Origin: an uncultured Alphaproteobacteria bacterium
GTDB lineage: Bacteria > Pseudomonadota > Alphaproteobacteria > Sphingomonadales > SMXR01
Length of the DNA: 48,516 nucleotides
Direction of reading: 5' to 3'
Assembly (NCBI GenBank): GCA_937126915.1
Contig: CAKZLM010000064.1
Location: forward strand, 1-48,516
How positions within the stretch are numbered: the first letter of the stretch is position 1; the number at the start of each line of letters is the position of its first letter. Shown piece by piece: positions 45,004 to 48,516 of the stretch. A program made the position numbers and the translations under genes. The notes below the pieces were generated by a model that was not told the DNA's origin, did not search any database, and worked only from the letters and a program-made list of their open reading frames with translations.

Positions 45004-45093
45004 AAACGTCTGGCTAGGGAAAATGAAATAATTGCGACGATGGCTACCAAACGAGTGCTGTTTGACAAGTTATAAAAGATGATAAGGAAAGCG

Positions 45094-47451
45094 ATGACAA
45101 TTCGCACGAAGATGACAAAAATTGCCTTACTAGGATTGGCCCTTTTCATGGGTGCCAATATGGCAAGCGAAGTAAGAGCACAGCAGGGGCAAGCACAAAC
45201 GACGCAACCAACGGCAGGCGCCACTGATTTGCGTATTGCGCGTGTTGCGGTTATTGGTAACGAACGTATTGAAGCCAATACCATTGCAACCTATCTTACC
45301 GTCGGTATCGGTGATCCTTTTAATCCTGAAGAAATTGATAATAGTCTGAAAACCTTATTTGCCACGGGTTTGTTTTCAGATGTTGTGATTGAGCGTGATG
45401 GCAACACCCTTCTTATTCGCGTGACCGAAAACCCGATTATTAACCGCGTTATTTTTGAAGGTAACAGCCGCCTTAAGCGCGATAAATTGCTAGAAGAAGT
45501 ACAGCTTCGCCCCCGTATGATTTATACACGTGCGCGGGTGCGCCAAGATACCAAGCGTATCATGGACCTATATCGCAAGTCAGGGCGTTTTGCCGCGGTG
45601 GTTGAGCCTAAGATTATTCAGCTTGAACAAAATCGTGTGAACCTTGTTTTCGAGATTTCAGAAGGCCCGAAAAGCCGAATCAGCCGTATTAACTTTATCG
45701 GTAATGAGATTTTCTCTGACCGTGTTTTGCGGGGTGAATTGTTCACCAAAGAATCGCGCTGGTGGAAAATTTTATCGTCAAATGACACTTATGACCCCGA
45801 TCGCATGGGCGGTGACCGCGAAGTTTTGCGTCAATATTATTTGCAAAATGGTTATGCCGACTTCCGTATCGTCTCTGCGGTTGCAGAATTGACTCCAGAT
45901 CAGCAAGACTTTTTCGTCACCTTCGTTGTTGAAGAGGGTGAGATTTTTACCTTTGGTGAATTAAAGGTTGAAAGTGATATTCCTGAGCTAAACCCTGCCT
46001 TTATGCATGGTTTTATTCAGATGCTTCCGGGTGATACGTACAACGCTAAACGCATTGAAGACACTATTGAATCAATGAGCCAAATTGGCGGTGTCTTGGG
46101 TTATGCCTTCTTGGACGTAAACGCCAATTTTGAGCGCACGCCTGGCAAAAATGAATTAAATATCACCTTCAAAATTAATGAAGCTCCGAAAACCTATGTT
46201 GAGAAAATCGTACTTAACGGTAACGTTCGTACCCGTGATCATGTTATCCGTCGCGAGTTCCGCTTGGCCGAGGGCGATTCCTTCAACACCCTGAAAGTGC
46301 GACGTTCAGAAACCCGTTTACGTGGTCTTGGGTTCTTTAAAGAGGTAACCTTGGAAGAAGTACAAGGCTCAGGTTCTGACCGTGTGATTATTGATGTAAC
46401 TGTTGAAGAGCAAGCCACAGGCCAGTTAGAATTGGGTGGCGGTTTCTCTAGCCTCGATAACTTCTTCGTTAATTTTACCATTGCTGAAACCAACTTGTTT
46501 GGTAAAGGCCAGCAATTGCGGTTGAGCACCCTTTTATCTGGGCGCCAAAAAACCGTTAATCTTAGCTTTACCGAACCTTATTTGTTTGGCTCAAACATTG
46601 GTGGTGGGATTGATTTATTCCGCTCTGACTTTGATTATATTCGTGAAAGTGGTTATCGCACCGTATCAACGGGAACGTCGTTCCGTGTTGGTTTCCCTTT
46701 ATCAGAATACATTCAAACCGGTCTGCGTTACACCATTCGTAATGATGATGTAACCGTTGGCAGCTCGCTTAATTCGCCGTTCTTGCGCGACTCTCAAGGC
46801 TCTAGCGTTACCTCTTTGGTGGGTTATACTTTGCGCTATGACACGGTTGATAACTATATGTATCCTAGCCGTGGTACCCGTATGACCTTCTCGCAAGATT
46901 TTGCTGGTATTGGCGGCAGCATTCGTTATTTGAAGTCAAACTTCAATTATGATTTCTATAAACCTCTACCACTTGGCTTTATCTATCACTTAGGGGCTGA
47001 AGGTGGTTATGTTTATGGTTTAGGACAGGAAGTGCGTATTAATGATCGCTTCTTCCTTGGTGGCCCACAAATGCGTGGTTTCCAGACCAGTGGTCTAGGT
47101 CCACGTGACACATCAACCAATTATGCTATTGGTGGTAACATTTTCTATGTGGCTTCAACAGGGTTCCAAATTCCTGTTGGTTCCGCCGCATCTGAAATGG
47201 GTCTGCAAGTTCACACCTTCTTAGATGTTGGTTCACTTGCAGGGGTTGACCTGAAAGCATTTGATGATAATGGTATTCCCATTGACAATAGCACCGTGTT
47301 TAGTAACGGAAGTCCTAGAATTTCTGTCGGTGTTGGCGTAGGGTGGGATTCGCCATTTGGTCCATTCCGTATTGATATGGCTCAGGTTATTAGTAAACAG
47401 CCATTTGATAGAACTGAATTTTTGCAATTTAACATTGGTACTAGGTTTTAA
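45094..47451 (+). CDS. bamA: Outer membrane protein assembly factor BamA
   Basis: BamA inserts beta-barrel proteins into the outer membrane. A signal peptide (KIALLGLALFMGANMASEVRA, cut about AQQ) is followed by five POTRA domains (about residues 45-430). The 16-strand Omp85 barrel follows, with the lid motif MRGF in GGPQMRGFQTSG and the terminal aromatic signal NIGTRF. I chose ATG 45094 because AAGGAAAG lies correctly upstream; the ATG at 45079 overlaps that site. Length is 785 residues. TTGACA and TATAAA upstream (45062-45076) are too close together to be one promoter. Confidence 0.97.
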   Translation: MTIRTKMTKIALLGLALFMGANMASEVRAQQGQAQTTQPTAGATDLRIARVAVIGNERIEANTIATYLTVGIGDPFNPEEIDNSLKTLFATGLFSDVVIERDGNTLLIRVTENPIINRVIFEGNSRLKRDKLLEEVQLRPRMIYTRARVRQDTKRIMDLYRKSGRFAAVVEPKIIQLEQNRVNLVFEISEGPKSRISRINFIGNEIFSDRVLRGELFTKESRWWKILSSNDTYDPDRMGGDREVLRQYYLQNGYADFRIVSAVAELTPDQQDFFVTFVVEEGEIFTFGELKVESDIPELNPAFMHGFIQMLPGDTYNAKRIEDTIESMSQIGGVLGYAFLDVNANFERTPGKNELNITFKINEAPKTYVEKIVLNGNVRTRDHVIRREFRLAEGDSFNTLKVRRSETRLRGLGFFKEVTLEEVQGSGSDRVIIDVTVEEQATGQLELGGGFSSLDNFFVNFTIAETNLFGKGQQLRLSTLLSGRQKTVNLSFTEPYLFGSNIGGGIDLFRSDFDYIRESGYRTVSTGTSFRVGFPLSEYIQTGLRYTIRNDDVTVGSSLNSPFLRDSQGSSVTSLVGYTLRYDTVDNYMYPSRGTRMTFSQDFAGIGGSIRYLKSNFNYDFYKPLPLGFIYHLGAEGGYVYGLGQEVRINDRFFLGGPQMRGFQTSGLGPRDTSTNYAIGGNIFYVASTGFQIPVGSAASEMGLQVHTFLDVGSLAGVDLKAFDDNGIPIDNSTVFSNGSPRISVGVGVGWDSPFGPFRIDMAQVISKQPFDRTEFLQFNIGTRF

Positions 47452-47453
47452 TT

Positions 47454-48041
47454 ATGAAAAAAATGACATCTCTTTTTACTGCAGCATTTCTAGCGATTGG
47501 TCTGCTTATCTCTCAAGCGCCAGCAATGGCTCAATCTGTGGACGCCAAAATTATTACAGTTGATTTTGATCGTGTAACCCGTGATGCTCTTGTTGCTAAA
47601 GACGTTGCTGCACAACTTCAAAAAGAACGTTTGGCAATTGAAGCCCGCGCTAATAATCTTCAAACCAGCTTACAGGCAGAGCGTCAAGCGTTGGAAAGTC
47701 AACGTAACATCATCGCCCAAGAAGCCTTTCAACAAAAGGCACAAGAGTGGGAAGCAAAAGGCCGTCAAGCACAGCAAGAGGTTGCTAGCTTGAACCAGCG
47801 TTTGCAAGCATCTGCTCAGCAAGCCAACCTTGAAATCCAACGTGGCCTTCGTCCTATTATCCAAGACGTGATGACCCAAAAAGGTGCGACGATGGTTTTA
47901 GATAAAGCCCTTGTTTACCATTCTGTTGGTGGCATGGACGTTACCACTGAGGTGATCGATCTATTGAACCAAAAAATGACCACTTACCAGATTCAATCTG
48001 TGAATGCTGGTGGTGAAGCTGCTGCTCCTACTCAAAACTAA
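47454..48041 (+). CDS. OmpH/Skp-family periplasmic chaperone
   Basis: This periplasmic chaperone of the OmpH/Skp family escorts unfolded outer-membrane proteins to BamA. A signal peptide (FLAIGLLISQAPAMA, cut before QS) is followed by the beta-strand KIITVDFDRVTRDA. A long helical hairpin rich in Gln, Glu and Ala (about residues 55-135) forms the tentacles. A strand segment VMTQKGATMVLDKALVYH returns to the body. It has 195 residues. It is 2 bp after bamA, so it is coupled with its client machine. A terminator follows 30 bp later. Confidence 0.88.
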   Translation: MKKMTSLFTAAFLAIGLLISQAPAMAQSVDAKIITVDFDRVTRDALVAKDVAAQLQKERLAIEARANNLQTSLQAERQALESQRNIIAQEAFQQKAQEWEAKGRQAQQEVASLNQRLQASAQQANLEIQRGLRPIIQDVMTQKGATMVLDKALVYHSVGGMDVTTEVIDLLNQKMTTYQIQSVNAGGEAAAPTQN

Positions 48042-48071
48042 GGTTTGATAGGACAACAATCTTTGACAGAT

Positions 48072-48100
48072 AAGGACCAGCCTCAAAACTGGTCCTTTTT
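48072..48100 (+). terminator. Intrinsic terminator after ompH
   Basis: AAGGACCAG and CTGGTCCTT form a perfect 9-bp stem with an eight-base loop, ending in five T. It separates the bamA-ompH unit from fabZ. Confidence 0.93.
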
Positions 48101-48127
48101 CTTTATCAAAAAGTGAAAGGATGTATC

Positions 48128-48516
48128 ATGGCTGACATGGGTGTGATTGAAATTCAAGAAATTATGACCTTAATTCCGCATCGTTATCCCTTATTGTTGG
48201 TGGATAAAGTAAAAGACTTGGTCCCTGGTGAATCAGGCACAGGTATTAAATGCGTCACCATGAACGAACAGTTCTTCCAAGGCCACTTTCCCGGTGAACC
48301 GGTAATGCCTGGCGTATTGCAGGTGGAGGCCATGGCCCAAACTGCGGGTATTGTGGCAATGACGACCCTTGAAAATGCCTCTGATAAATTGGTGTTTTTC
48401 ATGAGCATTGACGGTGTAAAGTTCCGCCGTAAAGTAGGCCCCGGGGATGTTCTGGAAATGAAAGTCGTTGTCGAAAAGGCTCGTGGCCGCGTTTGGCAAT
48501 TTAAAGGCGAGGCTTA
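48128..48516 (+). CDS. fabZ: 3-hydroxyacyl-[acyl-carrier-protein] dehydratase FabZ (3' end outside window)
   Basis: The enzyme removes water from 3-hydroxyacyl-ACP in fatty-acid elongation. The hot-dog fold active site is complete: His53 in [12 protein letters not shown] and Glu67 in [12 protein letters not shown]. The start is [26 protein letters not shown], which is typical. ATG 48128 has AAGGAT upstream. The first 129 codons are in the window; about 20 residues are missing at the end compared with the usual length. In most proteobacteria it follows lpxD, which is absent here. Confidence 0.96.

Follow-up and report, generated by a model that had tools for sequence, protein, structure and literature searches.

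Genes of the lipid A pathway were not found in the genome bin (G000; 2.79 Mb, 176 contigs, 99.09% complete) that holds the window, the whole stretch of 48,516 nucleotides analyzed here; serine palmitoyltransferase (SPT) is present, LptD is kept, and LptF and LptG (LptFG) are only of the clade whose genes neighbor spt. From these gene contents we consider it probable (roughly 0.78) that sphingolipid replaced lipopolysaccharide (LPS) and that the Lpt bridge persisted behind a front end dedicated to sphingolipid, which it would transport. The first-pass annotation had noted the missing lpxD; beyond it, we find that LpxC and LpxA are lost across the order, that the junction without lpxD recurs, and that the LPS-transport parts that were kept are of a sphingolipid-linked type.

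The ompH-fabZ junction and the lipid A genes

The end of the window was read, from protein sequence and gene order for uppS, cdsA, dxr, and rseP, as an envelope block with the order uppS-cdsA-dxr-rseP-bamA-ompH-fabZ (Table 1). The first-pass annotation held that the usual order is broken at 48042-48127, and this was confirmed: the 86 bp between ompH and fabZ contain one good terminator and no LpxD reading frame. Relatives of bamA found by tblastn (44-53% identity) lie on three Kordiimonas contigs, one Kordiimonadaceae contig, and one unclassified alphaproteobacterial contig (L001-L005). The truncated fabZ, a fatty-acid synthesis gene that is required whether or not lipid A is made, matches TIGR01750 above the cut-off at C64:48146-48514 and the Pfam FabA-like domain with an E value of 6.2e-29.

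Table 1. Features at the fabZ end of the window
Feature	Position	Strand	Evidence
bamA, outer-membrane protein assembly	45079..47451	+	open frame, 790 aa; tblastn relatives
ompH/skp chaperone gene	47454..48041	+	Pfam OmpH, E 6.6e-20
ompH-fabZ spacer, 86 bases, the place of lpxD in LPS-making alphaproteobacteria (lpxD scar)	48042..48127	+	
intrinsic-terminator-like hairpin	48072..48097	+	9 pairs, 5 G-C, loop 8, T-rich tail
fabZ, ATG at 48128, cut by contig end	48128..48516	+	TIGR01750 and FabA-like domain

When positions 46500-48516 were scanned for terminators, 5 sites were found against 2.1 (sd 1.3) in shuffles, the hairpin in the spacer being the strongest; the folding energy of the whole 86-base spacer is -22.0 kcal/mol. 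Because 30 bases lie between the end of the hairpin and the start of fabZ, the gene is probably read through the hairpin or from an upstream promoter. Attenuation of fabZ by the stretch from the hairpin to the fabZ start (48072-48127) is possible.

The first-pass annotation had also pointed to the place just after fabZ as one to inspect for lpxA. Contig C64 stops inside fabZ, so the next gene lies outside the window, and the part of this question that could be followed was followed on contig C161 of the same bin. The start of this contig falls within a copy of fabZ with 83% identity to the window end over 381 aligned bases, an identity from which C161 is taken to be a co-binned relative or variant; the copy has two stops near its start. 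After fabZ, C161 carries a citrate synthase gene (Pfam) and then two more frames, which we read as gltX and comEC, and no lpxA-like frame was found in this stretch. Contig ends that overlap at ∼83% identity were seen between window positions 48138-48516 and L077:1-379 and between L044:1-501 and L078:10143-10643. The bin appears to combine sequence from two related strains or species.

For comparison, 14 genomes of the window's order were studied closely (G000-G013; G011 and G298 are one assembly, of which G011 alone was counted). Three further Kordiimonas-like genomes (G296, G297, and G299) were found via the BamA loci L001 (uncultured Kordiimonas), L003 (K. laminariae), and L005 (unclassified alphaproteobacterium); they were counted apart from the order's 14 and left out of the LpxC search described below, and they group with order members in the LptF/LptG and LptD trees. 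These 17 genomes are called related here, with G004 and G297 near-identical in LptFG and LptD. The window's order includes Kordiimonas sediminis, whose contig NZ_BNCI01000002.1 (L004, in G298) shares its LptD coordinates with G011:C2, and GTDB places Kordiimonas in Sphingomonadales. A panel of 47 genomes was made up of the 17 related genomes plus 20 LpxC-positive and 10 LpxC-less genomes of other families, the latter two sets hand-picked, mostly for low contig number.

Comparison of the fabZ neighborhoods of 29 genomes showed that lpxD precedes fabZ in none of the 17 related genomes. The order bamA-ompH-fabZ is present in 15 of them, and in the other two, G005 and G012, none of the references used matched the gene that occupies the ompH position. 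A gltA gene facing fabZ is in view in 12 related genomes and on C161 of the window's own bin. At the BamA loci L001 and L003-L005, as well as at L002 (Kordiimonadaceae), ompH is followed by fabZ, with a second ompH-like frame in L002; lpxD is kept in L006, a Rhodospirillaceae contig. The lpxD-fabZ-lpxA order that the first-pass annotation called usual was seen after ompH, as ompH-lpxD-fabZ-lpxA-lpxI, in the LpxC-positive genomes G309, G420, G340, G473, and G356, and LpxC-positive G325 has the same order from lpxD onward. Among LpxC-less genomes of other families, G336, G338, G357, and G375 have bamA-ompH-fabZ, and G379 and G365 have bamA-fabZ.

The search of the genome for lpxD, lpxA, lpxC, and lpxB that had been proposed was run, and none of these genes was found in G000. 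Family searches for LpxD (PF04613), LpxC (PF03331), and LpxB (PF02684) gave 0 matches each in G000, and each recovered its own family in the Escherichia coli and Caulobacter controls. The LpxD and LpxB searches covered G000 alone; those for LpxC and LpxA covered 296 genomes of the order. LpxC was found in 0/296 order genomes, including the single-contig G004 and G005, and in 0/273 of those with ≥90% completeness and ≤5% contamination. The LpxA C-terminal family PF13720 was likewise above its cut-off in 0/296 order genomes, G000 included, with one sub-threshold match in G198 (23.5 bits against a cut-off of 24.5). In a class-wide sample, 156 of 190 genomes contain LpxC, and at least 3 of the 34 that lack it are members of the window's order. 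Given 0/296 in the order against 156/190 in the class, the lipid A pathway therefore appears to be lost order-wide. Of the two explanations in the first-pass annotation, it is thus lipid A loss that these searches support: the lpxD gap marks a loss of lipid A synthesis, of a kind already known for sphingomonads.

Sphingolipid genes and the retained Lpt parts

Contig C115 of the window's bin carries a run that comprises an LptF-type gene (at the contig start), a DAGK-family lipid kinase, a gene unmatched in Pfam, and spt, with genes for an acyl carrier protein, an NAD-epimerase-like reductase, and a fatty acyl-AMP ligase in the same stretch. Its SPT has PDB entry 2x8u, a Sphingomonas enzyme, as its best PDB match (E 3.8e-175), passes NF047599 (620.9 bits, cut-off 500), and lies just below the cut-off of NF047603 (650.7 against 670 bits). 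On contig C153, LptG is accompanied by a Polysacc_synt/MatE-type flippase and a fatty-acid hydroxylase; a further protein there has a weak GNAT match and may be the ceramide synthase. The LptF ends of C153 and C115 share 83% DNA identity over 501 bases, so the bin seems to mix two close relatives; that the two contigs are continuous is presumed. The gene order in Caulobacter is Aas-CerR-AcpR-Spt according to the available text of PMC11324152.

Across the panel, SPT was called at scores of at least 456 bits, against at most 253 for other enzymes of the superfamily. It is present at 576 bits or more in 14/14 order genomes and in 3/3 Kordiimonas-like genomes, and elsewhere in 6 of 10 LpxC-less and 2 of 20 LpxC-positive genomes. 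In the three genomes scanned, a gene for a DUF2141 protein lies between the lipid kinase and lptF (L080:6343-6864, L083:6637-7275, and L127:10704-11333), and in G001 it sits where lptF would come next; this protein may be part of the sphingolipid pathway.

The Lpt searches covered LptD, LptF, and LptG. LptD was found in all 17 related genomes (14/14 order and 3/3 Kordiimonas-like; split over two contigs in G001), in 19/20 LpxC-positive genomes, and in 6/10 other LpxC-less genomes, and LptFG in 16/17 (13/14 and 3/3), 20/20, and 6/10, respectively. In the window's genome, LptD lies on C78 (189.7 bits against a Pfam cut-off of 22.4), LptF scores 199.6 bits with PF03739 (cut-off 27.9; 3 matches in G000), and LptG scores 245.6 bits with TIGR04408 (cut-off 240). 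Both NCBIfam models used, TIGR04408 (LptG) and TIGR04407 (LptF), are equivalogs of LPS export; with TIGR04407 (cut-off 230), the LptF fragment of G000 (210 bits) and the full-length LptF of G004 (228.8 bits) both fall below. No LptFG was found in G001, a 160-contig draft of the window's family that has SPT and LptD, and on its spt contig LptFG is absent from the expected place.

One class relative, the closed, single-contig genome G365, has SPT and gave no match to LpxC, LptFG, or LptD, so a recognizable Lpt system is not required for a sphingolipid gene set in a class relative. Its single contig of 5.4 Mb (L049, L129) carries bamA, and its outer membrane is perhaps built without the Lpt system.

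In 11 LPS makers, whose lptD loci were first chosen by coordinates that suggested linkage, lptF and/or lptG precede lptD, with pepA in front in 10 of the 11; coordinates suggest lptFG-lptD linkage in G327 and G460 as well. In five LPS makers (G313, G339, G350, G473, and G481) lptFG are not beside lptD, and an lptD without neighboring lptFG is thus not alone a mark of LPS loss. The arrangement pepA<lptD> without lptFG was found in 12/14 order genomes, in 3/3 Kordiimonas-like genomes, and in G336, G338, and G357; G005 and G010 have neither pepA nor lptFG in a short lptD flank. The absence of LPS-type lptFG between pepA and lptD is like a second scar.

Of the 16 related genomes that have LptFG, 13 (10/13 order and 3/3 Kordiimonas-like) instead encode it at a distance of 0.2-4.3 kb from spt; on C115 of the window's bin, LptF and spt are 2.8 kb apart. 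The two are unlinked in G012 and G013, and linkage is not resolved in G002. In other families, LpxC-less genomes show spacings of 2.7 kb (G338), 4.9 kb (G336), 6.0 kb (G375), and 12.5 kb (G357), with linkage again not resolved in G379; in LPS makers the spacing is 3 kb in G325 and 12.9 kb in G473. The window's genome thus has the linkage with aasR-cerR-acpR-spt that characterizes Caulobacter-type LptF2/LptG2. G003 has, at L116 (G003:C3) and away from its spt, two additional LptF-type genes that belong to the sphingolipid clade.

LptF/LptG clades and their residues

A quick IQ-TREE phylogeny with long branches was built from 89 LptF and LptG proteins; it excludes one LptF fragment of <200 amino acids (L078), LptFG of G329 and G460, and a weak third match in G480. 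LptF falls into an LPS clade (support 96, starred) and a sphingolipid clade (98, starred), and LptG does the same (98, starred, and 87, unstarred, respectively). The 18 LpxC-less genomes that have SPT and LptFG (13 order members and 5 from other families) are all placed wholly in the sphingolipid clades, and this placement holds for the LptFG of G012 and G013 that are unlinked to spt and for G296, G297, and G299. G325 and G473, which have both LpxC and SPT, contain one LptFG pair of each clade type and a single LptD. Sixteen genomes represented in the tree are LpxC-positive and lack a strong SPT; their pairs belong to the LPS clades, and G321 has a further pair that falls in neither clade type. 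The LptFG genes of G361, which has neither LpxC nor a strong SPT, are LPS-type.

The LptD tree, which leaves out the split LptD of G001, showed no split by cargo. In it, G336 and G375 lie among LPS makers (support 85-92), and the order forms a clade of its own with G338 (95, starred). Since G336 and G375 stand apart from the order's clade, LPS was lost more than once if this tree reflects descent.

The further pair in G321, an LPS maker by LpxC that also has an lptD-linked pair, is highly divergent and lies at L140:6997-17369 (G321:C2). Its same-strand run includes a serine-palmitoyltransferase/BioF-like enzyme, an inositol-phosphate synthase, an SDR, a CDP-lipid cytidylyltransferase, a GT4 glycosyltransferase, and a PIP-synthase-like enzyme, several of these assignments being below NCBIfam cut-offs. 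This locus, from one genome, suggests a phosphoinositol-type (sphingo)lipid with its own LptFG and would fit permease pairs dedicated to a cargo.

Charge was compared between the clades after the tree and a strict 75% filter, which returned five columns of clade difference in LptFG (one of them a gap column); most columns were thus chosen by the data, and the counts exclude the divergent G321 pair (L128). At the LptG column of E. coli K40, the residue is basic in 17/19 LPS-clade rows against 0/23 sphingolipid-clade rows, and at that of K41 in 16/19 against 2/23; in the sphingolipid clade these columns are acidic in 15/23 and 14/23 rows. The D37 column is acidic in 18/19 LPS-clade rows and in 2/23 of the sphingolipid clade. 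The available text of PMC6744409 gives K40, K41, and D37 as LptG contacts of LPS (to the 4'-phosphate, the inner core, and the glucosamine disaccharide, respectively), and that of PMC5548808 reports that K40E/K41E had no effect on E. coli growth. Other contact positions in LptG from the literature (K34, K62, and R136) gave no separation of the clades, and at R133 the trend is opposite (basic in 7/23 sphingolipid-clade and 0/19 LPS-clade rows). Mean net charge of LptG is -3.7 in the sphingolipid clade against +1.1 in the LPS clade. Sphingolipid-clade LptF gains basic residues at several columns, among them that of K30 (basic in 23/26 rows against 2/19 in the LPS clade), so charge is rearranged and not plainly lost. 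None of the traits of LPS-type LptFG (placement in the LPS clades, lptD adjacency, and the basic headgroup pair of LptG) was found in the window's genome.

A candidate route for sphingolipids

Based on these data, we propose that lipid A synthesis was lost in an ancestor of the order that contains Kordiimonas sediminis, the absent lpxD being one footprint of that loss, and that the outer leaflet would be supplied by sphingolipids made from the aasR-cerR-acpR-spt genes. Ceramide-based lipids would be flipped, with the Polysacc_synt/MatE-type flippase gene after lptG in the window's bin as a candidate, and LptB together with the sphingolipid-type LptF2G2 would then receive them. They may pass along the Lpt bridge to the LptD that formerly served LPS, which would place them in the outer leaflet. 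The second LptFG front end, predicted to be older than the loss, would have let LPS be dropped. Counting against this proposal are G365, with SPT and no Lpt match; the lack of an LptFG match in G001; the five LPS makers whose lptFG also lie away from lptD; the unchanged growth of E. coli with K40E/K41E; the basic residues gained by LptF of the sphingolipid clade; and the unstarred support of 87 for the sphingolipid clade of LptG in a quick tree. The chances appear even for the wider proposition that a single shared LptD works with cargo-specific LptF/LptG front ends (for LPS, for ceramide, and possibly for phosphoinositol-sphingolipid) and that a second front end permits the loss of LPS, repeatedly.

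The strongest competitor, which we nonetheless regard as unlikely, agrees that LPS was lost and gives LptFG and LptD another cargo, a capsule-type glycolipid or other envelope lipid, with the closeness to spt reflecting a general neighborhood of envelope genes. It is favored by the LptFG of G012 and G013, which are not near spt, by the spacing of more than 12 kb in G357 and G473, by the second LptFG pair of G321 in an operon that contains a glycosyltransferase, and by the fact that ceramide transport is deduced from sequence. It is opposed by LptFG that lie <5 kb from spt in 13/16 related genomes, by the recurrence of this linkage in LpxC-less G336, G338, and G375 (6 kb) and in the LPS maker G325, and by an LptFG clade that tracks SPT, not LPS, across the panel. 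That the Lpt parts are leftovers of little function after LPS loss is far less probable still: LptD is retained in 14/14 order genomes, one LptFG clade was lost while the other was retained, and lptF and lptG are followed by the flippase gene in an operon-like array in the window's bin. In its favor are the lack of an LptFG match in G001 and the less basic LptG of the sphingolipid clade.

The least probable reading, to which we give almost no weight, is that lpxD has moved, as the first-pass annotation allowed, or that lpx genes were missed because the draft leaves their region unassembled, as a bin of many contigs and a window that stops at a contig edge might suggest. Relocation is rejected on the lack of LpxD, LpxC, and LpxB in a 99%-complete bin and on LpxC and LpxA at 0/296, single-contig G004 and G005 included for LpxC; the 17/17 related genomes without lpxD before fabZ also speak against it. 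An assembly gap as the cause of the missing lpxD is rejected on the order-wide pattern.

Replacement of LPS by sphingolipid, our preferred reading, has parallels in known systems. Kawasaki et al. (1994), a reference in PMC11324152 and PMC11087976, reportedly described Sphingomonas paucimobilis as a sphingomonad that lacks LPS and bears glycosphingolipids. The window's genome resembles sphingomonads in having SPT and in that no LPS genes were found; it differs in being a draft, grouped with Kordiimonas and known from its genes alone. When the literature on Lpt in LPS-less alphaproteobacteria and on LptG residues was searched, with few subscription journals covered, the Caulobacter LptF2/LptG2 work was found. 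As described in the available text of PMC11324152, the Caulobacter crescentus sphingolipid cluster CC_1168-CC_1152 includes LptC2, LptF2, and LptG2, and the transport role of LptF2/LptG2 is a proposal that its authors did not investigate. Orthologs of these putative transport genes are reported there for S. wittichii and Z. mobilis, both LPS-less, at dispersed genomic positions, whereas the genes lie together in most genomes here; that text makes no mention of a loss of LPS-type LptFG. The window's genome shares with Caulobacter a neighborhood that unites aasR-cerR-acpR-spt with genes for a lipid kinase, LptFG, and a candidate flippase; Caulobacter, however, makes LPS and has both pairs, whereas here the spt-linked pair occurs alone with LptD. 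Compared with the E. coli LptB2FGC-A-DE exporter, the LptF/LptG and LptD families are likewise above their Pfam cut-offs, but there are no lipid A genes for the cargo, and the K40/K41 positions of LptG are replaced, often by acidic residues.

PMC11324152 states, in its available text, that the route of bacterial sphingolipids to the outer membrane is unknown, and in that of PMC11087976 the authors identified no sphingolipid transporter. The retention of LptD and of sphingolipid-linked LptFG extends the Caulobacter proposal, as available from PMC11324152, to LPS-less lineages. A large lineage without lipid A genes in which LptD is accompanied by the spt-linked LptFG clade alone provides a candidate sphingolipid transporter, and the LptFG clades form a natural contrast set for substrate contacts with which the transport question becomes testable. 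The order also suggests how replacement of an "essential" lipid, LPS among them, could come about.
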